NCBI GenBank assembly: GCA_002749535.1 | Contig: MZZL01000398.1 | Coordinates: forward strand, 124,001 to 188,000 | From: Apophysomyces variabilis | Lineage: Eukaryota; Mucoromycota; Mucoromycetes; Mucorales; Mucoraceae | DNA: 64,000 nt | Direction: 5' to 3' | In this document: positions 34,763-64,000 of the stretch, in pieces | Layout of the letters: every line of letters starts with the position of its first letter | How positions within the stretch are numbered: position 1 is the first letter of the stretch | Translations under genes and position numbers: made by a program | The notes under the pieces: generated by a model | What the model was told of the DNA's origin: nothing | Seen by the model: the letters and a program-made list of their open reading frames with translations, nothing else | The model's database searches: none

Positions 34763-37284
34763 TTAAAATGTGGCACTTCGTAGTATGCCCTGCCGGCTGG
34801 TAACCACCACGCTCCCTCCTACCACGTTTACGTCAATTCCCTTCACATGACGCTGAGACCCAAAACCCGTTGATGATGCTGCGATATTATCCACCTTTCC
34901 GATTACCTCTCCAGTCTCTATATCCATGACTGTCACCTTCCCTTCCTCTGTAAGTAGGAAGAGCGATGTACGAAGTACGTTGTAAGCTGTATATTTCACA
35001 GGCATATCCGTGTCCTCTACACTTCTGCTGTCGAACGTATGGACTAAAATCATGGATTGAAAGTTATCCGGCGGAGAGTACGGTAGATCAAAGGGAGGAA
35101 GTCTCTTGTGATACTCATCTCTTGTAGAAGGATGGTCCATTTCTCGCAGCATCTGTACGGCAAGGCACTTCAGCTTTTGGGGTCCACGTTTCCACCAGTA
35201 AAAGTGATTTGTCCAATCTCTTCCTTTATAGACATAACCATTACTTTCGTCCATTAATGGATCCCAGTTAACCCGCAATAAATAAGATATATCCCAAACT
35301 TTGATTTCAAGTTTATCATTTTTATCATCCCCAACAGCAATAAGTCGTAGGCCATGTCGCGCCAAGTCTTCCTTGCATGGATATGTGGTGACTGACCAAA
35401 AAGGTGGTAATACCATAGTCGATTCCAAACCCCACGGTCGCGGAACCGACATATCGTCGTCATCATCGTCATCATCCAGAAAGAATCCATCGTCATCTTC
35501 AAAATCTGGCATATTGTCGTCTTCCCCTACAGTTGTGTGTGACCAGTGATCCATCCGTTCTACTGGTGCGACCAAGTTCTCCACGTTCTGCACGCACGAG
35601 GCAGCATCAGACTGTGATTTCCAAGGAAGAACTCCGACTTTCACACCAAACCGCCAGTCATAAAGCGTCAATTCATCCTTCTTATAGCTTCCAACGCACA
35701 CCAAGTGGTTTAAATGAGGTGGATATCGAAAATGGATTATACAGCTGACTTTTTGGCCCAGATGAACAGTGGTGACCACGCTTGCTGGTACAACGTCTTC
35801 TTCAAACTCTTCTATTGGTGTCTGAAATGAATCTTCCGCCTTGAAACATCGTTCATACCCATCCCAAATCAACAGTACTTTGGATGGATCGAGTATGTTA
35901 GGATGACCGCGAATATCGAAGCGGATCAGCTGCCCATACCCGTGAATAGGCTCGAAAGTTGGTCCAACAATTAGCATGAATACAGTATGCTCCGAATCAT
36001 ACTCCGCATGTCTAGGGGAGACTACACGCATCCACTCTCGAAGGCGACCTGTTTTCTGATCCGGAATCCATTGATCGCCATCATTGGATTGAGCCCAAGA
36101 TATGTCTGAAAAGAAAAAGATCTCTCTTCCTACAAAATCCCCGTCAACGTTGAGATGGGCTACGCATTGCGTATCGCCATTATCAAATAGTCGGTATATC
36201 AGCACAACACGCCAGGTATCCACCCTATCCTCACTGTCGGCTTCATCATTATCTGGGAATCCAATGGCTAGAGTAAATAGTCGAACCTTTTCCGTTTCAG
36301 ACATGCGAATCGTCTGTAGCCCAGTGATCTGACAGGAGGTTTCTGCGGGAGATAAGCAAACATCGAATTCACGCACAAGGCGCCAAGAGGGGTATTCCCA
36401 AAAGAGAATCTTGTGCTCTGATCGCCGTAGCCTCCCAAACGCATCCAGAGGTCCCTTGCGATGTTTGCCTGTGGCAACAATTCCCTTATTTGTAACTCGA
36501 TCAATATCTGCAACCAGTGGGTCTTGTATCCGAAAAGCTGGAGGATAATATCGCGTGCTGCAGTCAGCAAATGGGTCTTCTATTAATCTAGGTAGTGGAT
36601 CATTGCCTGACATTTCATTATGTGCGTCTCGAAGTAGCCGATCGAGGCTATTGGGTGTAAAAGAATCCATGGGAAAATCAATATCACTGGGCATAGTGAT
36701 ACTTGTCAGAGACGATGTAGATGGAATACTGGGAATATTTTCATGATTGGAAGATGATGATAAGGACGGTTCTGTACGTAAGGCGAAGTTCGATAACGAA
36801 GGGGATCGTTGTCGACAAGCTGCTTTGTTTGAGGGAGTGCTATGCATATGTTCTTGTTGCTGGGTCATATCTTGATCTCTGAGCTTACGTTTCCGGCCAG
36901 GTGTTCGCAAGCTAAGCGAAGAGACCTGATTTTCCGGGGCTGTTTCATCTGATACGAATGCGAATGAGAAGGACTTTGCCCGACGATTCTGCTGTTCGAC
37001 ATGTATGACATAGTCTCTCCAGTCAATGAGAGGTGCTGATCTTGCATATGATACTTGACTCGCCCAAGTTGGATAATTGGTGTGGAATACGTGATGCCAC
37101 ATGCACAAGTCATCCACAATTCTATGCCAGGCATGCCGCGGAATGAGTTGTGCTATAGCTTGTCTTCAAACATTGCAAACCTTTTGAACCTGCGACAGAC
37201 AGCTTCTAATCTGAGGAGACTCGTGACATCCACTGCAACTAACTTGAATATATGCAGCAATATCTCGTCTGGTAATCGGTCCAT
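34763..37284 (-). CDS. F-box protein with a probable beta-propeller
   Basis: Starts at ATG 37284 (MDRLPDEILLHIFKLVAVD). One 68-nt intron (about 37184-37117) joins EAVCRR to IVDDLCMWHHVF and so completes the F-box (about residues 1-55). Without it the F-box is broken by a stop. The remaining 780 residues are one exon. They include a low-complexity Ser-rich stretch with KRKLRDQD and a large region of WD/propeller-like blades, for example LNHLVCVGSYKKDELTLYDW, GLRLIAVGDDKNDKLEIKVW and LFLLTEEGKVTVMDIETGEV. An Asp run lies at about 35460-35480. F-box proteins carry substrates to SCF (Skp1-cullin) ubiquitin ligases. The substrate is unknown. The propeller is inferred from repeat-like motifs, not from clear GH-WD units. 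Confidence 0.78.
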
Positions 37285-49228: not shown

Positions 49229-50897
49229 CTTTATGATTGACCGTAACAAAAACAAAGCAACTAATAAAATGTGGCGGGTACCACGAAATCAAAAAATCTA
49301 TGTCTCTTTTCCAATCTTTCCATTATCGCAGAAGCTTTCTTAGTATTCAGGATGTTGTCAAGTAGAATGCGATTAACAGGAGAATGTTTTGTCTGAGCTT
49401 TCGTAGTATTAGTCTGAAGGTCTTAATCATGCAAGCTTTCTCTTCTAAGTTCTGTTATTGACAATCTGTATCAACTGCTAGGACTGTTATCAATGATAGA
49501 TTTGAAGACGGTACGATGCTTTTTGGTTAAGAAGTCATAAGGGTTTGGCGCTCTTGCCAAATTTCATTGGTTGCAACAAGCCGGATCTGCATACTTGCAA
49601 TCAACCCAGGTTGTCATAGATGTCCGATAATGGACAAATACTGCTTCAAGTTAGTTTTTGCTTGCATCACATCCATCAAATAAGCTCGGTGTTCATACTC
49701 TCCATATGTTATAGGCAGTTTTACACCCCTGATCCATATCAGTTGTTGAACTGAAAATGCTCTACGGATAACACGAGAATCGATAGTCTGCAGTGGGAAA
49801 GAGACTAGTACGAATCGACTAACGCACTTGTTTTCTTCTAATGGCGGATCAGTGTCCTTTAACATAGCGTGATCTTGACTGTAGAGAAAGAAATCCCGAA
49901 ACATCCGTTGTCAACTCTTTTACTACGCTAGCTCGTGGTCATCATTTCGGTTTCTATACATAAAATAGTATGAATATGATTCTTATGGTTTACAACCCGA
50001 TATTTACGGACAATAATACCCTTCCAGATGAGGTCGTCTCCAGAGCCATTTCCTTTCGGCTGGAACTGATCCCTACAGCCACAATATAGTAAGCTTAATT
50101 TAATGTTTATTTGGACCCCTGCACATCGTGATTCGTAATGAAACCGTAAGCATTATACGAGCAGAGCAAGTCTACACTACGGTTGTCGCAAAAGAAATTG
50201 GCCAGGCCTTGGGAGCCGTCTGGAAGCCGTTGGTATGCACCACATCAATTTAGTAGCGGAAAACCAAGGCTTACGCGAATTGTGCTTTTGGAAGACATCG
50301 TCATAAGATGCGGTCATAAATTTGATTTCAACTGCTTTGCTCCTTATCCTCCAACGCCCGATCTCAAATACATTCTCGCTTTCTGAAGTCAAGATACTAT
50401 CGTTTTGACTGGAGTTGCCTTCAAAAACTTTGATGCGCACGAAGAATGGCCTTGAAACACATAAAGACTTGATTATTCGGGTAATAGACTTGCTCCAGCT
50501 TTTTTTTTCTTTCTTTCACTCGTAGCCGGTCTCTACGCGCATGAAGAAATTTGTAAGTACCCATTGGTAGAATGAAAAATTGGATACACCACAAGATGTG
50601 TATTTTAGGTTGTTCATTTTACGTTAGTGTCACTATAACGCTAGTTCTGAGGACCTTAAATTGCCCACAATATTTCTTAGCCTGATTTTGACGTACCAAA
50701 ACAATAAAAGAGAAACACAAGATACTTATTGCAGCCGAGAAGTAAACTATAATATTTTCTTTCCTTCTCTTTACCTTCTTGAAGTATTAGGGTACTTATT
50801 TTGATTGGTGCCAAATTTGGAGAAAACAATAATAAAACAAAAATTTTAGCACAACCGGAGAAAGAGAAGCAAAACAATTATTATCTTCTTTTCGGAA
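49229..50897. other. Long intergenic region, no supported gene
   Basis: About 1.7 kb. A 96-codon minus-strand frame with ATG 49904 (ending LKQYLSIIGHL at 49614) and an 87-codon one at 50177-50440 look somewhat protein-like but have no recognisable domain; they could be relics. The rest is AT-rich, with a T-rich leader before the next gene. Confidence 0.45.
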
Positions 50898-52823
50898 ATG
50901 GAATACTACAAATTCTCACCGCGATATGGTTACGATATCGACGAAGATGAGGAAGAGGAAGATGAGGACTACGATATCTATGACAGCTATTACCCTCGCA
51001 TATTGCAACGACACCACAAAGAGATGTTACAACGGCGTCGGCGGAGACAATACCCTTCTCCTTCGATGGAAAATGAAGACGAGGATGATCAACCAACACA
51101 TTTTAATTGGCGAGTGCCACGATATTCCGTAACAGAAAGTAGACATCTTCAACGGCGCCCAGTGTCTTACTACTACGATGAGGACCTCTATTCTGCCCCG
51201 CTCGATGAAGAAGAGGAAGAAGAAGAAACTGAATATGACCATGACACAGCGCACTTTTATCCGCCGTCTGCTTGGCCAGCTGTACCTGCAACAGATGGAT
51301 TATCCAAACCTACCCGACCGTATCTAGCTCGCTCTCTTAGCGATAGCCGTCAGCGCTTTTCACGTCGTCGAAATAACGTTTCATCCGGGTTAAGGCGCTC
51401 GAATTCAGCATCCTCAGCTCCAACGCATAATGACTTTAGCCGAAAGCATGTCCCCTTTCGAACTGCTAGTCAGCCCGGATCACCAGACGAAACAGATGAA
51501 GAAGAAACAGACAACAGCAATGATGGACCGAGGCTACCACCACAGCGCCGTCGGTCGTTGCATGCTATGCCTCCTCCACCGCCCATGCAGGATCAACTAC
51601 GAAGAAGACGCTCCATGTTCGAACCATCCTTGGCGATGCCTCTGCCCACGCCATCAGGAAGTGGTCTGGTGAATGGGGTTATGAGTCCCTCTGGAGGATC
51701 GAGTACTTCTCCTGCGACACCTTGGCTATCGCCTCATGCTCTGACTCCCAGCTTTCCCCACCCAATACCTGGCAGCTATCTAGGATCCCGACCACCACCT
51801 CCACCACCTCCCCCTCCTTTTCCGCCCGTGCCAATGCCGTTGGCAATGATGTCCGGGCCGGGAGGCCTCCAACGTCCACCTATGCCCATTCCAATGCCCA
51901 TAGGATTTCCATGGGGTACGGGTCAACATGCACCACACCCCACGCCGTTTCCACCTCCCATGATGGGTGGCCCGTTATGGGATGCAGCTGCTCGAATGGG
52001 CGCATCGGAACATGGAGAACAAACTCAAGCTCAAACTCAAGCTCAGGCTCAGCAAGCCGACGCGGGCGAAGTAAACACTGTTTCTGTAGAAGAATCTGCC
52101 GGTGCACGAGAAACTGCTGCTGCTGAGACCACTGTGACACCAGATCGTGATAATCGTAATAATAGCAATCCTGCTTTAGCAAATGCACAATCCCTGGTTC
52201 AGCCTTCCATTCAGCGACGTCGCTCTCTATTTGGTGGACTCTTTGGTGGTAGCGGTCCTGCTGCTGCTGCGGCTACCGGGGGAACGGCTGCTAAACGAAT
52301 GGTACATGATACCTTTCGTCAGGACCCGTCCACGTTTGTTTCTGTAGATGCACCACAAAACCCTGCTCTACAAAACGGGCTAGGTCGAAAACTTTCTAGA
52401 AGGGCGCAACAATTCAAACAGTTGAGCACGGTATGGTGTTATCGACCTCGCCATATCCCCGACGATGGTTCGCAACGCGTATGGGTAGCATTCAGTATCC
52501 AAAACCAATATAAACTAGACAAAGCGGCCTACACCCTGCGGAGTCAAGGTGCAGCACGCAACCATCAGCTATCGGTCACACTAGACAAAGAGGAGAAACT
52601 ACCGGGTACTGTGTTTGTTATGCCTGCTAGCGGTGTGGCCTACCACTTTCCTAGCCTCTTTTCTTCGAATCGAGAAGAGCTAGAAGTTGCTTGTTTCCCT
52701 GCTCATGAGAGCAATCTGGTATTACGTCCTGTAGCTTCACCAGAAACACCAACCATCTCCTCTCCTAGCAGCAATGCTTCTACACGCGTGGCCTCACGTA
52801 TCTTTGGTTCAATGTTTGGATAG
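50898..52823 (+). CDS. Large disordered protein with conserved-looking C-terminal domain
   Basis: Single-exon frame of 641 residues from ATG 50898. The N-terminal 480 residues are low-complexity: acidic runs (DEDEEEEDEDYDIYDSYY), repeated Arg-Arg-Arg-Ser patches that look like kinase sites (RRRSL and RRRSM, four or more times), a long polyproline stretch near 51797-51830, and a Gln-Ala-Gln-Thr run near 52022-52055. The last 150 residues look folded: VWCYRPRHIPDDGSQRVWV, then AFSIQNQYKLDKAAYTL and KLPGTVFVMPASGVAYHF. The Trp-Cys-Tyr plus later Trp and Tyr-Leu spacing faintly resembles a WWE domain, but this is not secure. The RRRS pattern suggests regulation by a basophilic kinase such as PKA (inference). 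Family unknown. Confidence 0.75.
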   Translation: MEYYKFSPRYGYDIDEDEEEEDEDYDIYDSYYPRILQRHHKEMLQRRRRRQYPSPSMENEDEDDQPTHFNWRVPRYSVTESRHLQRRPVSYYYDEDLYSAPLDEEEEEEETEYDHDTAHFYPPSAWPAVPATDGLSKPTRPYLARSLSDSRQRFSRRRNNVSSGLRRSNSASSAPTHNDFSRKHVPFRTASQPGSPDETDEEETDNSNDGPRLPPQRRRSLHAMPPPPPMQDQLRRRRSMFEPSLAMPLPTPSGSGLVNGVMSPSGGSSTSPATPWLSPHALTPSFPHPIPGSYLGSRPPPPPPPPPFPPVPMPLAMMSGPGGLQRPPMPIPMPIGFPWGTGQHAPHPTPFPPPMMGGPLWDAAARMGASEHGEQTQAQTQAQAQQADAGEVNTVSVEESAGARETAAAETTVTPDRDNRNNSNPALANAQSLVQPSIQRRRSLFGGLFGGSGPAAAAATGGTAAKRMVHDTFRQDPSTFVSVDAPQNPALQNGLGRKLSRRAQQFKQLSTVWCYRPRHIPDDGSQRVWVAFSIQNQYKLDKAAYTLRSQGAARNHQLSVTLDKEEKLPGTVFVMPASGVAYHFPSLFSSNREELEVACFPAHESNLVLRPVASPETPTISSPSSNASTRVASRIFGSMFG

Positions 52824-54014: not shown

Positions 54015-55335
54015 ATGGTCTCTCCCGTTGCCGCTGAATGTCAGAACACAACTAGTCTCTTTGGTCAACTAGCTGAGAAGATCCCAAAGACACAAGGTAT
54101 ACATATACATATATACATACATATGAGCTTTTTCTTCATTTTGTAATGGAAAGATTCTTATACTATTGTACTTTCTAGAGGTGGACGTCCAGGACCTCAC
54201 GGAGTTACTGAACAAGAAATTGATCAGCCAAGATCAAGATCAATCCTCTGCAAGCTCGCCTCAATCCCTTTCCTCGTCAAGCTCTACTAGTATTGCTTCG
54301 CTTCAGTCGGATGCCATGGTCTCCTTTGTTACTAAGGACCTCTGCTGCCCTACGCCTGAGGTGTGCGCTCCAGTTCTATCACGGTTTGTTAGCCATTTCG
54401 ATGAGAAATTACGATATCATTACCGTGACCCGGCATTGGATCGCTTCTTGGAGCATGGTCAGTTTGGTTTTGCTCGCAAGGTCCATGGTTATGTCTGCGC
54501 CTCTAAAAAGATCCTTATGGTCCTCCCTGCTTTCCCGTGCAAATCCCCTAACCCTCGAACCAAGGTGCTTGGCGAGCTTCCCGATCGTACCGAGGAAATA
54601 GCCATTGCCAAGATGAACACGTTCTGCTCTGAAGTAGCTGAGTACTATGCACCCGGTGCAGAGTTGACCATTGTCAGCGACGGTCGTGTCTTTGCCGATC
54701 TTGTGGGCGTTCCAGATCATCTGGTGACAGAATACAATGACTTCTTGCAGAACGTTATGTTCAAGGACCGTCCTCGCCACATTGTCTATCGTTCACTGGA
54801 TGACCATCTTAGCAACGGTGAAGTCCAAGAGATCCATCAAGCATCTGAGCACGACCAACGTCGAGCTGGTCTGATGGAAGCATTCAAGAACGAAAAGGAA
54901 GGCAACTCTCTGGTCAAGGTTGGATTTGTCCGGTATTTGATGGAAGACCGTATCTGGCCTGAAACCATGAGTAAGAGTCAGATCAAGAAGGTCTGCAGAG
55001 AAACAGCCGATCGAATGATCCAGCGTAATGTGGCATTCTCTCGATTGTGTGAGCATTACTATCCCGATCATGTTCGCTTGTCCATCCACGCCTATGACAG
55101 CTCTGGTCCCAAATACCCCATTCAGATTGCTCCTAACCATGGAGGACCCACACCATGGCACTCCGTTGCCGTCGAATTGGCTAATGGCGAAACATGGTTT
55201 GTGAAACGTTCCGTTGCCGACAGTCTGGTCTCTCAAGGTCATCTCGAGCTGTACAACCATCAAGTATTCCAGCGGCCCTGGGCGTATCGTCAAATCACAA
55301 ACGACATTTTAGACATGAAGAAGATTGTAGCATAG
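54015..55335 (+). CDS. Isocyanide synthase, DIT1/PvcA family
   Basis: Exon 1 from ATG 54015 codes MVSPVAAECQNTTSLFGQLA and ends at a GTATAC donor near 54097. The intron is full of ATACAT repeats and ends TTTCTAG near 54178; exon 2 runs to TAG 55335. About 412 residues. Family features: GQFGFARKVHGYVCASKKIL, LPAFPCKSPNP, ELTIVSDGRVFADLVGVPD, RLSIHAYDSSGPKYPIQIAP and TPWHSVAVELANGETWFVKR. These include the conserved SDG(R)VF, HxYD and TPWH elements. PvcA/IsnA enzymes make an isonitrile from the amino group of Tyr or Trp using ribulose-5-phosphate; yeast Dit1 makes the formyl-tyrosine precursor of the spore-wall dityrosine. No P450 (DIT2), oxygenase or transporter neighbour is present, so the product cannot be told. 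Confidence 0.92.
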
Positions 55336-56793: not shown

Positions 56794-57654
56794 ATGAAAA
56801 ACGTCCTCATCGGCGCTACTGGTAGCGTAGCAAGCATCAAAATCCCAGAGCTAGTTCAACTTTTTAAAAAGGTAAAGAAACACTCAATAGCATACGGATT
56901 AGTCATCGTGTCAAATCTGTCCAGCATGATGTCCATCTTAAAGTGATCCGAACTGAAGCAGCGGGATACTTTTTTGACGATGCGCTAGTTAACGCGGAAG
57001 TACATACAGACAGCCAAGAATGGAAAGTAAGTGAATAGATATATCTCGTTCACCGGTAAAAGCAGTTTTTCATGAAATCCCCAAAAGATGTGGAAGAAGA
57101 AGACAGATCCAGTCTTGCATATTGAGGTATGAAAAGGAATTCCGTACGGTATCTTATTTTATATGCTTATGGTGTTTTCGTAGCTGCGAAACTGGGCAGA
57201 CATTATCGTGATTGCACCATTGGACGCCAATACATTAGCAAAATTGGCCAACGGTCTATGCGACAACCTACTGGTACAGTATGGTGCCAAAAACATAAGA
57301 TTTGACAGTGTATACAATAGACATGCGTTCTACGGGCTTGGGATCCGCGAAAACCGGTGATCGTCTGCCCCGCCATGAATACCCACATGTGGAATCATCC
57401 CTTTACCGCAAAGCATCTCAGCGTCCTTGTGGAAACGCTCCAGTTCAAAACCATCTCGCCCATCAGCAAAAAGTTAGCGTGTGGTGATATAGGTAAACAC
57501 TATTATCAGCGGACAGATATGCAGGGCAAAAGGCTCATCATCAAAAACAGGAATGGGCGCCATGGCAGAGCCTGAAACCATTGTATTGGAAACCATGGCT
57601 GAACTGAAAGAACAAGAAAAGCCAGCGAAACTGACAGACGAAGATTTACTTTAA
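56794..57654 (+). CDS. Phosphopantothenoylcysteine decarboxylase
   Basis: ATG 56794 (MKNVLIGATGSVASIKIPEL) to TAA 57652-57654, in about six short exons. The flavin-binding start GATGSVASIK, the ELRNWADIIVIAPLDANTLA segment (usual form DWADxxVIAPLSANTLAK), VIVCPAMNTHMWNHP (the PAMNTxMW substrate-recognition motif) and LACGDIGMGAMAEPETIV (with the catalytic Cys of the flexible flap) are all present. The second exon of the GDIG motif is joined over an intron at about 57493-57551. The enzyme decarboxylates 4'-phosphopantothenoylcysteine to 4'-phosphopantetheine, the third step from pantothenate to coenzyme A. Length of about 195 residues fits the single-domain type without the long acidic tail of yeast Hal3/Vhs3; only a short charged tail (ELKEQEKPAKLTDEDLL) follows. 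Confidence 0.92.
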
Positions 57655-57778
57655 GCAAATGATTTATTAGACGGTATCTGAACTCTAAAACTCCTCTGTG
57701 ACTCAAATAAAGCGTTAAAATTGTTTCTCAGTCTCAGAGTACCTGTTTCTCTTACCTGAGGCATAGGTCCTGATAACT

Positions 57779-57795
57779 CCTGTCATAGCGACAGG
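57779..57795 (-). other. Hairpin in the 3' flank of the Fanzor gene (possible guide-RNA part)
   Basis: CCTGTC, a 5-nt loop, and GACAGG form a 6-bp perfect stem 150 bp downstream of the Fanzor stop codon. TnpB and Fanzor guide RNAs (omegaRNAs) are usually made from the 3' end of the gene and its flank and are structured. This hairpin is a candidate only: short hairpins occur by chance, and no second stem or boundary was identified. Confidence 0.25.
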
Positions 57796-57946
57796 TCCCG
57801 GTTCTCTCAACCTTCATTGTCATAAGAACTATTATCGCAAGGGCAGAACTACTACTTACTCTTCACAGAGCTTCCGAGAAGAATTCACGCACCTTTAACG
57901 TCAGGACACATGATGAATACGCAATAATTATTTGATAGAAGCCGAC

Positions 57947-60900
57947 TTACCAAAAATTGGTGGCGCCGGGAACAAACGGTTTTCCAGCCGAGAATATGCT
58001 GGGGTCAAATGGGGTCAACGTGCTTCTGTTTGCTGATAGGATGTTACTGGCAGATGCCAGACCTATTGCTACAGCCGCTTGAACATCTCTGTTTTGCGTG
58101 GCATGGCCGGACTGGTACGCCGGACAGCAGGGGTTTACGCATTGTGAGGCACCGTTTACTCTCACAGTCTTCCACTGTCTGCTCTTTCTTCGCCGTGCTT
58201 TAGCTCGTTCAACTCGTTCAAAACAGTAGACGCATAACTGGGAACTTCTGTGTTCATTGGTCATGGATACAGGCACATATCGGCGATGACGTTTACGGAG
58301 CCATTTTCCCCCTCGTTTTAAATGTCCTTTCAGACGTAGACCGACTCCAGTTCCTTGAGTGCCGATGGCCATAATCGGTAAAGCCTTTTGGCGCCCATCG
58401 GTCTGTGTCGTCGCTGCAGCCTTAATAAACTTGCGCTCTTGGGCGGCCACTTGATCATAGATGCGATCCGTATACAGTTTTTGTGTGCGCTTTTCATGCT
58501 CTGCCCGATTCGAATGATAGAAAGCTCGCAATTCTCTTCGGCAGTTCCTCTTTACCTACATGTATGTTATTATGAGTTAGAGGCAGAAGGAAGCCGAAGG
58601 ATAATACCGCTTGCGACTCTAAAACTTGCTCCACCGTGGTTGCTGAGGCGGATGATCTTTTCGATAGCGTCTTCTCTGCACTGATAACCGCAGGGTTATT
58701 CTAAAGACAAAGTGAGTCAACCTAAAACTTAGCGGCTATCTTTATCATACCTTTTTCCTCCTCTCTCTTTTTTTGCGAAAACTCCTACATAAGGTTTTCT
58801 CCTCCAGATAACCAGCTGTGATTCTCATCGGCTTAGGAAGCGTAGACATTTCTTTAGGAATAGACACAGGCGTCTGCCCGTCACCAAATTGGCGATTATA
58901 CAGGTCGAAATGTAGACGAGCGCGTTCCATAGTGACCGGCACCGTTGTCGCCAAAGTCCTCAAGCCATAGTCCGTTCCGCCAAAAGTAATAGTCTTCTTG
59001 GGATCCTGCTTGACTTCTTGATGCAGCTCTGAGATGTCCAGAAACTCTGTATTGGCTTCGCAACCTGGGCGATTCCAACTCGCAACTTTACATAGCTTAG
59101 TCTCCTGTTCTTGTTCATCATCTTTTGGTTTCGTCTCTTTGTTCGTTTGTTGCTTCTTCAGAATATCCAGCTGCTATAGTTTCGTTTATTTTCTTGTTTA
59201 GCTAATGCATATGATATTCTTCACTTACCTTCTGATATATGTATCGCAGTCTTCGTTGATCCGCGAGCTGTGACCTTATCTTGCTTAGTTCAGATTGGCT
59301 CTTTGCGCGCTCGAGTTTAGCCGCCTTTAAATCTTTATATATGTCGGTCTGTTTCTGTTTCGCTCTGGAATCATAGATATCGAATTTCTCACTCTTACGC
59401 TTATCGCGGACTTTTCTTCGAGCTACGTCCTTGCTTCTCCGATAACTCTCCATTCGGCTTTCGACGACTTCCTCCCTCTGCCGCAACGCGTTTTTTATCT
59501 GCTTTTCAGCCGACTCCAGAGCTTTCACCCTCTGTTTTGCATCTTCTAATGAGCATGTAATATTGGCGATGTCTAAGCCGGATTTATCTTCAAATTGACT
59601 ACTTGCGCTATCTGCACGCTTTCCTTTCGACTTTTTCTTTCTTTCTTCGTAGTGAGAAGTATCTATAACCCTCCCTTTTTTTACATCACCGTCAATCACG
59701 GCCATTTGATGAGGTGTAATGGTGATTCGCCACCGCGGTTCCAAACCTCGAGTATTGCAAATATGCTTAACTTTTTCTTGATCAAAGAAGGAACCAATCA
59801 CAGCAGATTTGTTCGTACGAGCTTCTCTGATATTGTCGATTGTGCTTCCATCTTCTTTGTATAGATTGAACTTTGCAGAATTGGAACCAAACATCTCATA
59901 CATGGACGCCGCATCGAGAGGTAGAGCATGGATTGAGGCAGGGCTGATAGTTGGGCAGATATTTGCAGTGAACTTGGAATATCCTGTCGCATGAAGAATC
60001 GCATTTGATAACAAAACAAATCGCAAACGAAGAGATATTGCGCTGCTTAATCGACCTTTCGGCACGTATGGTCTAAGTGCGTTTGCAAGTTTCACGACGA
60101 TATCTATCTCGACCTTCTGGAGCTCATCGTTGTCGTTCCATATATCCGACACATCACTAGCTTGTACGTTCCCGTCGATGTCTGTTGACAGCAGTAGTTT
60201 CTTGGTGATAGCTTGGATTCTTATCAACCTTCTTCTGCTGGGTTCTTTCTTCAGTGTCTTTATCTCAACTTCTTCCAACTCGTCCTGTGCCTCTTCGATC
60301 GCTGTTTCTATCGTCTCTTCGATTCCTTCATCATCCATGACACTGATATCGGCTGAAATAGCTAACTTGTCCATATCGCCTCTTGCCTAATTGACGTTTG
60401 TTCAGCTCATATATCAACGTTATGACAAGTAATTCTCACCTCTTCATCTTTTTGATGTGGCTGGTTATCAGCCTTTTTAGGCCTGTACTTTTCCTTTGCC
60501 TGTTTCTCCAGTCGTCTGATTGCTTCGACGCATGACTTCTTCCGCTGCAAAAGATTGGCTCTTTGATTCCCATCCATTTCTATTCCCAAGCGCTTCTCCA
60601 GCCGTCGCAAACTTTTGCGTTCTTGTTTTAGTCTACCTTTTATCTTGCGTCTGCGCCATTCTTTTTTTCTCCGCATCGTTCTGGAGCTCTCTTCCCGCTG
60701 CTTTTCCTTTTCTTGTAGTTTTTTCTCGGTAATTTCCTGAATCTTCTTTTCTCGTTCAGAGGCAAGATTGATCCTGAGCAGGATACGAAGCAAGTGATTA
60801 ATTGATTTGTGGAATAATCCGCCTGCCCACATGTTCTGCAGGTCTGTGGCATACTGCTTCAACTGGAAGTGCATGACGGTGCTTAAGCCTGCAGGTGGTT

Positions 60901-61930
60901 TTGGCAAGTCCTTCAAGCCTTGGTGCTGTAAGGAAGACCAGAAAGATTTTCCTTGAGCTTTGTAGCTTTGTCTTCCAAAATAGTCTGAATGAAGGAACTG
61001 TAGATGTGCTTCGGTAAAGAGGTTTAGGAATTCGTCATTGTGTTTTTTCGGCAAAGCTTTTACATAATTCTTGATGTTATCAGGCATTGGGGCCACAGCT
61101 ATTGCCAATTCTGAGTTCAAAAGTTCTGGATGTCGAATCCACTCTTCATGTATGACATCCAAAACATTAAATGTCTTGCCATCTTGTTGATAGTGCGCTT
61201 GCTTTGACTCTGCATCCAAGACTACCGAGCCGGATGCGTACTTGAGCATGGTTGCATGTACTGCGGTTCCCAGCTCAGAAGCGTAGTTGGTGGCCTGTTC
61301 GGATGTGATAGCAATGGTCTCAAGAAATGTCTGCTTCACTTGATTGTCAAGGTCTTCTCGTAAGATTTTTGATAATCTAACGGAACATGTTCGTATTATT
61401 TCTTTTTCCTCTTTACTGTCGTCATTCACAGTAACTTCTTTGCTGGAACCAGCTTCTTCTACTTCTCCGTGCTCCTCAAGTCTCGCCCGTGCTTCCGCCA
61501 CGGCGTCATTGAAATGAGCTGCAGCGTAATCTCTCCAAAGCTTGCCGATTGATGCTGGCTCAGGATAGTGAAAACAGAGGGTTCTACGAATCGTTCCCCG
61601 TGTTACATTTATTGAGTCATCGGCTTGCTCGAGTGAAGTTCTTGGGACACGATCCGCTTTCTCTAAACGCGTTCGTAGCTCTTGCAGGATTTTGTTGGTT
61701 TTTGCTTGTTTTTCAACTTCTGACTGAAATCTCGCTTTCTTTGCCGTGTTTTTCCTTGGTTTATCCTCAAGTTCTTTTGAAATGATTGTAACTAACTGGT
61801 TCTGAAACACGTCGTGCAAGGCTTCAATCGCCTTGTCCAAGGATATATTTGATTGAATTACTCTCTTTCTTTTGCGTTTGTTTTCTCGTATTTGCGGGTG
61901 CGGTACTTGCATGGCTGACAAACGGAACAT
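57947..61930 (-). CDS. Fanzor (eukaryotic TnpB-like RNA-guided nuclease), apparently intact
   Basis: Five exons (61930-60440, 60386-59229, 59173-58751, 58700-58608, 58555-57947) joined by four 50-55 nt GT-AG introns, all phase 0, give 1257 residues without a stop. The C-terminal third is a TnpB-type RuvC nuclease: RuvC-I in TITFGGTDYGLRTLATTVP (Asp951); a NNPAVISAEKTLS and helical segment typical of Fanzors; a zinc ribbon with CVYC (1163/1166) and QCVNPCCPA (1194, 1198/1199); and RuvC-III in TQNRDVQAAVAIGLA (Asp1212). The RuvC-II Glu is not in the classic place; Glu1156 in MTNEHRSSQLC is a candidate for the displaced Glu reported in Fanzors. The N-terminal 900 residues are Lys/Arg/Glu-rich and helical, far longer than in most Fanzors. 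Alternative start at Met7 (61912). Known Fanzors are RNA-guided DNA endonucleases carried by transposons; no transposase or terminal repeat was seen here. Confidence 0.88.
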
Positions 61931-62847
61931 GTTTTGTTAGTTCAGTTTATGTACATCTCATTCAACGGGAATTCACCTCAAACAACGAAAATATTGTTAT
62001 CATAAGAGAAAGAGCAGTGTAACAATTTCAGTTGTCAATTGGTGAAGTCAGTTCGGCATGATGATCTTGTAACTAGTCTATTTTTAGATGAGCAACTCTG
62101 ACTGGATAAACATTTGAACAAAGAAGTTTCAGGTCTTTTATGTATAGTCATTTGAGGAGGAAACTGAAAATGCATAAAAGCCAAGGCACAGGACAGCAGA
62201 AAATGTTATAATCATTCGTAGGATCAGCTGCAAATGAACCAACAATTAATCTCTGGTCGACTCCAGCTACGAACTTTCTTCTAATAGTATCAGGTTATGG
62301 TATTCAAGACCATGATTAACCTTCATGACTCTGACATTGTATTCAGATCATTGAGTTAGAGTACCGGTGCCTGTCTGAGATATAATTACCAAATCATTAA
62401 CACATGAACTTGTCTGATTCATCCCTGCTGTATTATCTCACGATCGTAGTTCTTATCATATCTATTCAGATATGGAATATACCAAGTATTGTACTAAAGT
62501 ATCAACCATATTTTAGCCTGGTTATCACTCTACTGTTGTCCATTCTATCAGAATTCGACAGAAGAGATGATTTCCCTCTGGATCTCACTCCGCTTGAGTC
62601 TCAGGACTGAGGGAATACCCACTCGGTATTTCGCCAAATGCAACTGTGCAAAAAATTCGGTTCAAGAGTTAAAGCCACTTGGGCGATAGTATCGGTCACA
62701 TCCCACATTCATTGTCCAGGTATTAATGGTTACCGGTGTGTATAGTTTTAATTTTAAAGTAAAAATGCATCTTATCCGGAGCTATGGGAATAAAAAAAAA
62801 ATATACATGAAGTCTATTTGTACAGCAAAATAAAGTGTTTTAGAGGA
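61931..62847. other. 5' flank of the Fanzor gene, no supported gene
   Basis: About 0.9 kb between the Fanzor start and the 3' end of the glycine dehydrogenase gene. I compared it by eye with the 3' flank (57655-57946) and saw no terminal inverted or direct repeat. A 68-codon hydrophobic frame at 62404-62610 (+) could be a small membrane protein but has no other support. Confidence 0.5.
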
Positions 62848-64000
62848 TTAATTTTCAAGGTACTCTTCAGGAGAAGGACAAGTGCAGATCAAGTTACGAT
62901 CGCCATAAGCATCATCTACAGACCATGAGTTAGAAAAGATGAAGACGTTTAAGAATCCGATAATGACTTACCAACTCGAGATACCGATGGCCAGAACTTC
63001 TTCTGGCGAAGATGGGGCATGGGGAACGCTGCAATGTCTCTGCTATATGGCTTGTTCCAGTTGTCGTTCAGCAAAGCATGGATAGAATGGGGAGCGTTGA
63101 CCAGCATGTTATCCTCCTTAGGTAACTTTCCATCAATAACCTGCTGAATCTCGCGACGAATGGAAATCATAGCATCACAGAAGCGATCTAATTCAGCCTT
63201 GCTTTCACTTTCTGTAGGTTCAATCATCAAGGTATTAGCCACGGGCCAGGACATGGTGGGACTATGGAAACCGTAGTCCTGAAGACGCTTAGCCACATCA
63301 ATGGCTTCGATACCGTTGGGCACGAAGGGCCTGATGTCTACGATGAACTCGTGGCCGCACATGCCATTCTCATTGGTATAGAGGATTTCGTAATAAGGAG
63401 CCAATCGACTGGCCATGTAGTTGGCGTTCAGGAGCGCAGCCTTGGTAGCGCTTGTCAGTCCAGGACCACCCATCATTTTCACATAAGCCCAAGAGATAGG
63501 AAGAATGGAGGCTGAACCATAAGGAGCGGCCGATACAGGACCAATGGCATTCTCACCACCAACGGCCACGACGGGATGTCCCGGCAAGAAAGGCGACAAA
63601 TGGGACTTGCAGGCAATAGGGCCCATACCAGGTCCTCCACCGCCGTGAGGGATACAGAAGGTCTTGTGAAGGTTCATGTGGCAAACGTCTGCCCCGATCT
63701 CGGCCGGCTTGGTCAAGCCAATTTGAGCATTCAGGTTGGCACCGTCCATGTAGACCTGTCCTCCATAGCCATGCACGATCTTACAAGCTTCCGCCACGCC
63801 ATGTTCAAAGATACCAAAGGTTGAAGGATACGTAATCATGACCGCTGCCAGACGATCCTTATTCGCTTCCGCCTTAGCCTTCAAATCCGCCATATCCAAA
63901 TTTCCGTCATTATCACACTTTACAATCACCACGTCCATACCCGCCATGGCTGCCGATGCGGGGTTAGTTCCATGTGCAGAGATGGGAATCAGACAAACTG
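62848..64000 (-). CDS. Glycine dehydrogenase (glycine cleavage system P-protein), C-terminal part
   Basis: The 5' part lies beyond the window end; visible coding is 64000-62971 and a last exon about 62917-62848 ([16 protein letters not shown]). [18 protein letters not shown] at the window edge, then [11 protein letters not shown] and [20 protein letters not shown] identify it; the Lys in [15 protein letters not shown] carries pyridoxal phosphate. [50 protein letters not shown] and a last [20 protein letters not shown] follow the family exactly. The enzyme decarboxylates glycine and passes the aminomethyl group to the lipoyl H-protein in the mitochondrial matrix. The codons here are more uniform and GC-richer than in neighbouring genes, as expected for a highly expressed gene. 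Confidence 0.97.

Follow-up and report, generated by a model that had tools for sequence, protein, structure and literature searches.

The 64-kb window, by which we mean the whole stretch of DNA that was analysed, carries on its minus strand an element of ~4.95 kb (57674..62625), with a spacer at its left limit and, at its right, a terminal ATAC. Its boundaries were set by comparison of twelve copies in the same genome and are ambiguous by the few bases of an ATACC(G) direct repeat. The window copy sits ~20 bp past the stop codon (57652-57654) of a flavoprotein gene, presumably of the PPCDC type, whose last part occupies the plus strand at 57181..57654 (PF02441, E 2.7e-6), and it faces the 3' end of a glycine dehydrogenase gene, gcvP, whose C-terminal part (62949..63998, minus strand; PF21478, E 4.6e-58) converges on the other flank. 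About 2.3 kb from the right-hand neighbour gene lies an isocyanide/dityrosine-type biosynthesis gene (54127-55335, plus strand; DIT1_PvcA, PF05141, E 4.9e-69). Two further frames in the window match nothing in Pfam at 1e-5: one of 800 codons at 34763-37165 (minus strand) and one of 657 codons at 50850-52823 (plus strand).

Exon joining establishes that the Fanzor-type gene of the element is real: five exons on the minus strand combine into 1257 residues with no internal stop. Exon 1 (60440..61930) encodes residues 1-497, which comprise an NLS-like KRKRKR, a charged stretch (1-179), a conserved block (180-400) and a further charged stretch. Exon 2 (59229..60386) supplies residues 498-883, with a second conserved block (540-738) and a charged stretch from 739 onwards. 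RuvC-I with D951, in the sequence GTDYGL, is encoded by exon 3 (58751..59173, residues 884-1024); exon 4 (58608..58700, residues 1025-1055) has predicted splice borders; and exon 5 (57947..58555, residues 1056-1257 plus the stop) contains E1156, the zinc ribbon and D1212 of RuvC-III. The four GT-AG introns measure 53, 55, 50 and 52 nt. Several alternative splice choices likewise leave the frame open, so that the exact exon borders, above all those of introns 3 and 4, are predictions; splice dinucleotides and frame are identical in all twelve copies. P0001, an annotated protein of Apophysomyces ossiformis, is collinear with the 1257-residue protein, starts at its residue 7 and ends in a different C-terminal tail of 34 residues. 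A few substitutions separate the two, and none of them is present in the twelve genomic copies. By this protein the genome is that of A. ossiformis, a member of the Mucorales, or of a very near relative. A second family of the genome, with 15 copies known, is 45% identical to the family of the window copy (family 1) over 1189 aligned codons, with 0.44/0.34/0.68 differences per codon position. This third-position excess, together with a profile match to SpuFz1, the Fanzor1 of Spizellomyces punctatus, lifts the gene beyond chance. Taken singly, the exons found no confident match in Pfam or NCBIfam, PF07282 reaching 9.3 bits on the last exon, below the cut-off of 26.3. The genome holds at least 73 PF07282 matches, among which as listed the window copy is absent; searched with the last exon at E 0.01, it gives 135 matches.

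The assignment to the Fanzors rests on the catalytic core. A profile of three families from this genome, searched against PDB sequences, returned a single match, SpuFz1 (8gkh), at E 1.6e-5, and its alignment pairs E1156 with SpuFz1 E541 and D1212 with SpuFz1 D606, both among the metal-binding residues named for SpuFz1 in the available account. When families 2 and 3 are aligned with family 1, D951 falls on the RuvC-I Asp (GVDPG in family 3), E1156 coincides with the Glu that precedes the zinc ribbon, and D1212 takes the RuvC-III position. The motif that Bao and Jurka are cited as giving for the Fanzor/TnpB superfamily, D-X(125-275)-[TS][TS]XX-[C4 zinc finger]-X(5-50)-RD, is present in full: D951, 207 residues, S1159-S1160-Q-L, C1163/C1166/C1194/C1199, 11 residues and R1211-D1212. 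The zinc ribbon is spaced C1163-x2-C1166...C1194-x4-C1199, and the RuvC-II Glu takes the alternative place typical of Fanzors, E1156 standing six residues ahead of the zinc finger at C1163. A first-pass annotation had proposed an intact frame for a Fanzor-type nuclease with D951 and D1212 as the RuvC aspartates and a zinc ribbon behind an unusually long, charged and helical N-terminus, and most of this stands: the frame of 1257 codons is open in twelve of twelve copies, the alignments agree on both aspartates, the zinc-ribbon cysteines are present, and ~900 residues precede the nuclease. The charged character holds for residues 1-179, 401-539 and 739-914, while the conserved blocks 180-400 and 540-738 had been overlooked; E1156, an atypical DYG and the element ends are additions to that account.

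Two fingerprints are absent, and this counts against the Fanzor-type reading. DPG at RuvC-I is described as near exclusive among Fanzors, whereas D951 lies in DYG; the TDG motif that Fanzor1 has in its WED domain is missing before RuvC-I in families 1, 2 and 3. SpuFz1 differs from the present protein in both respects. RuvC-I reads DYG in families 1 and 2 and in the relatives P0002 and P0005, and DPG in family 3 (GVDPG) and P0003 (EDPG). Three Mortierella-group relatives extend as far as RuvC-I, two of them as partial records; GTDYGL stands in two of the three and EDPG in the other, and P0004 stops short of this motif. Other Fanzor1-like fragments of the genome have DPG (L003, L005), NPG (L001) or DPD (L007) at RuvC-I. 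The N-terminal ~900 residues consist of the two blocks set among three poorly conserved stretches with 35-51% charged residues. The blocks are 44% and 54% identical to family 2 and 26-39% identical to the Mortierella-group proteins; neither has a Pfam match above cut-off. Since two of the three Mortierella-group relatives with a RuvC-I likewise have DYG, the long N-terminus is common to an old lineage. Two canonical Fanzor fragments from this genome gave no match to the N-terminal blocks in a thin-profile comparison, which weighs against the explanation that we favour below. Family-3 elements (L094, 1-441) and P0005, a Mortierella relative, bear a similar extra N-terminal region (INIYLF / IRVYLF) that has no Pfam match and was not seen in families 1 and 2. 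Two protein searches listed a single relative among their matches, P0001, the protein itself, and the three-family core profile found at least five proteins, P0001 included; in viral contigs, 29 pattern matches yielded no confirmed relative. In the open-access literature we found no paper combining Fanzor with Mortierella and, among the matches listed, none combining Fanzor with Apophysomyces, which does not prove that either is unpublished.

The element is recently moving, with precise common ends and a preferred target. Exons 1 and 2 each occur twelve times in the genome at 99-100% identity, and DNA comparison places each of the twelve family-1 copies in different flanking DNA. Pairwise comparison of the copies (66 pairs) gives 0-7 bp of difference, 2.3 on average, across a core of 4,857 bp, which leaves out the first ~95 bp, where three copies have small deletions; relative to the window copy, each has 0-3 amino-acid differences. 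Twelve intact copies so close to one another indicate that the element moved recently. The first-pass annotation had noted the absence of a visible transposase and had offered two fates, a recently active element or a domesticated, host-retained nuclease. We found no transposase and no second gene in the element, and the copies speak for the former fate and against the latter. Ten further places keep just the 3' end at 78-90%; seven of these ten gene-less places share one deletion form, in which ~230 nt round the start codon are joined to the last 580 nt. A search for empty sites in the same genome, scoring the best 40 of 199 candidates with a query 9 bases shorter than intended, found none: 24 of the 41 matches were flanks of the copies themselves, the other 17 belonged to a dispersed repeat in which the C79 copy has its left flank, and none runs on into the right flank.

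The ends are exact. With a slash at the boundary, family 1 reads AAATAC/CGAGTGG-GTATTCCC on the left and CAGATAC/C(G) on the right; in the window the left-end core ATAC-CGAGTGG-GTAT lies at 62615..62629 in minus-strand reading, its left ATAC belonging to the target and its spacer and GTAT to the element, and the right end GATAC/CG lies at 57672..57678 on the minus strand, where the element arm ATAC gives way to target. On the left flank, A-A at -6/-5 and A-C at -2/-1 are invariant in the twelve copies (strict ATAC in 10/12); on the right, base 1 is C in 12/12 and base 2 is G in 11/12. A terminal direct repeat results, ATACC strictly at both ends of ten copies and ATACCG in nine, the copies on C79, C95 (3.88 Mb) and C29 (23 kb) deviating from ATACCG. 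Neither terminal inverted repeats nor a target-site duplication was seen in any of the twelve. Family 2 reads (x)TAC or CAC/TATTAGG-GTATAACA on the left in all twelve copies examined and TGTTATAC/T on the right in the ten that were readable, which predicts the circle junction TGTTATAC-TATTAGG-GTATAACA. When right and left ends are joined, inverted arms flank a 7-bp spacer (ATAC/GTAT in family 1, 8 bp in family 2), and family 3 has the same layout at its right end, GATAC-TCCGTCG-GTAT in 6/6 copies examined. Three diverged families thus have ATAC-7bp-GTAT in common as a core, be it at one of their ends or at the junction of a circle. In the window ATAC-N7-GTAT occurs once, at the left end; as other spacings occur 1-5 times, this number is at chance level and the position alone is telling. 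At positions 2-3 of the family-2 left-end spacer, the base is that of the target at four of nine informative sites and that of the element at five; the four make the spacer suited as a crossover overlap, though unproven. In family 1 the element base is present at all but one informative site.

By its position and by analogy with Fanzor loci, the region 57673..57840 (minus strand), which runs off the right end into the flank, may encode a guide RNA, and RNA-guided cleavage would be expected of this Fanzor. A hairpin with loop CGCTATG, CCTGT-CGCTATG-ACAGG (57779..57795, minus strand), ~105 bp before the right end, is a candidate part of the scaffold. Its 12-base core GTCGCTATGACA is kept in 8/10 related 3' ends, and family 2 retains the loop, with two stem pairs in which both partners are replaced (two double base changes). 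Weak folding and unfavourable covariation argue against such an RNA: the region folds no better than shuffled sequence (z -1.27; of 200 shuffles, 20 reach the same stability), and an 11-sequence fold, from which L069, having no hairpin, was left out, has a covariation term of +0.98. Rfam has no match in the 64-kb window.

How, then, might the element move? Our best guess at a mobiliser is a Crypton acting in trans. In the available descriptions, Cryptons and CryptonF have terminal direct repeats of 4-6 bp and no inverted repeats, and tyrosine recombinases cross over at inverted arms round a 6-8 bp spacer; our element likewise has short terminal direct repeats without inverted repeats or duplication. 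It is unlike them in that its arms, 4-5 bp long for family 1 and 8 bp for family 2, fall short of the usual 11-13 bp, and in encoding no recombinase, since no tyrosine-recombinase match falls in its exons; both differences tell against a Crypton. Recombinases of this kind are encoded elsewhere in the genome: GCR1_C, the CryptonF mark, matches 21 places, all over cut-off, and one recombinase, with an NDC10_II match at E 1.9e-7, has tyrosine-recombinase relatives at 26 places. Crypton recombinase genes were not found near most intact copies. Coordinates place a Crypton beside a Fanzor three times, on C78, C10 and C43. On C78 (L099, 1161-1911, minus strand) a CryptonF recombinase with NDC10_II and GCR1_C, broken by stops, lies divergently upstream of a family-3 Fanzor. 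The layout on C10 is the same by coordinates, and on C43 a GCR1_C match lies downstream of the Fanzor. No GCR1_C match was found near the family-3 copies on C27, C79, C95 and C107; the family-1 copy of C84 has one at a distance of ~8 kb. The genome also contains recent copies of retroelements which we take to be DIRS-like (L095-L098), with 1286-codon frames and inverted ends; considered as mobilisers, they were rejected on the two copies of one family, whose ends do not match.

We propose a model to which we give an even chance: a recently active mobile element with one gene, for a long and divergent Fanzor-type nuclease, is moved as a circle by a Crypton recombinase in trans and makes a guide RNA at its 3' end. 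The element would leave as a circle with the junction ATAC-CGAGTGG-GTAT, and a Crypton-type tyrosine recombinase from another locus would insert it by crossover at an AAATACC(G) site of the chromosome; we read the ATAC-7bp-GTAT core as the probable crossover site used in trans. The guide RNA would run from the 3' end of the element into the flank, so that the nuclease could recognise an unoccupied target with the flank as guide and AAATAC as adjacent motif, the putative target signature being AAATACCG. Cutting of this target would favour copying of the element back by repair. Cut-and-copy-back by repair has been proposed for bacterial TnpB. The model has its difficulties: the circle-junction pattern is no commoner in the genome than in a control (24 and 20 matches), and no empty site was found. 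The model can also be widened, tentatively and with clearly less than an even chance of being right, to a whole lineage, long established in Mucorales and Mortierella-group fungi, of Fanzor-type nucleases of exceptional length (~1,250 residues; DYG, alternative Glu, no TDG), partnered with Crypton-type recombinases in trans. The place of insertion would then be determined by the recombinase site ATAC-N7-GTAT, and its target arm, AAATAC for family 1 and TGTAC for family 2, would double as the target-adjacent motif of the nuclease.

Some of the same observations admit other explanations. Were the element a rolling-circle transposon of the Helitron/HUH type, a nickase would cut TAC/C both in the left flank and at the right end, with the 5' hairpin and the TAC terminus as its nick signals, and the Fanzor would be cargo. 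Fanzor1 genes are described in Helitron2 elements that have 5' hairpins and no duplication, and the left end, from the same bases as the proposed crossover core, can fold as an ATACC-GAGTG-GGTAT hairpin. Rolling-circle insertion would also give left-end spacer bases that are mostly the element's own, as at five of nine family-2 sites and at all informative family-1 sites but one. These points weaken the Crypton model, yet we consider the rolling-circle alternative unlikely: the right end bears the same arm rather than the inverted one, inspection by eye recognised no asymmetric inverted repeat with a subterminal 3' hairpin arranged as in Helitron2, and a crossover accounts better for the four target-matching family-2 sites and for a spacer of 7 bp in all three families. 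The lone gene and the burst of copies might alternatively mean that the element is autonomous, with a recombinase or transposase hidden in the two N-terminal blocks that lack a Pfam match. We regard this as distinctly improbable, given that Pfam and NCBIfam contain no recombinase or transposase match to the N-terminus and that a separate Crypton recombinase gene adjoins one related element.

The remaining two possibilities carry little weight. Fanzors of Rhizopus, Phycomyces and Mucor, related Mucorales, have been described as non-autonomous passengers of cut-and-paste (DDE) transposons such as MuDR, but with inverted terminal repeats and 9-bp duplications, and the lack of both in 12/12 copies makes such an origin very improbable here. 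Least credible of all is a domesticated or host-retained gene, for although the long open frame with introns and the conservation of the blocks across Mucoromycota and Mortierella-group fungi would suit one, twelve near-identical copies in unrelated flanks and an insertion between two convergent host genes do not.

As a Fanzor carried by a transposon the element is of an ordinary kind; its size, motif and ends are unusual. Among the closest known systems, the MCi-2 elements described from Mucor circinelloides (Bao and Jurka 2013) are likewise multi-copy Mucorales Fanzor elements without inverted repeats, and one of their subfamilies has a partial Crypton transposase; they differ in target duplications of 11-12 bp, ATAATTNNNN(N), and in variable 5' regions, where our element shows no duplication and 5' ends that are uniform apart from small deletions. 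SpuFz1 resembles family 1 in its RuvC-II Glu, RuvC-III Asp and zinc ribbon and, in the available account, in being multi-copy without a transposase, with 'ghost' loci that keep the 3' end without the protein, like our ten gene-less places; it is about half as long, and its element has inverted repeats. Most Fz1 proteins are reported at 600-700 residues and some at ~800, against 1257 here, and PpFz1 of Parasitella parasitica is described as a Mucorales Fanzor1 with an extra insertion of ~100 residues in RuvC.

What would this element mean for the Fanzors? Its twelve near-identical intact copies provide, within a single genome, a natural series of predicted guides with their targets, which makes guide RNA, target-adjacent motif and mobility directly testable. 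The DYG lineage breaks the stated Fanzor fingerprint yet keeps the alternative Glu. If the ends are indeed tyrosine-recombinase sites, an RNA-guided nuclease would stand beside a class of recombinases for which the available accounts describe only uncertain Fanzor cases.
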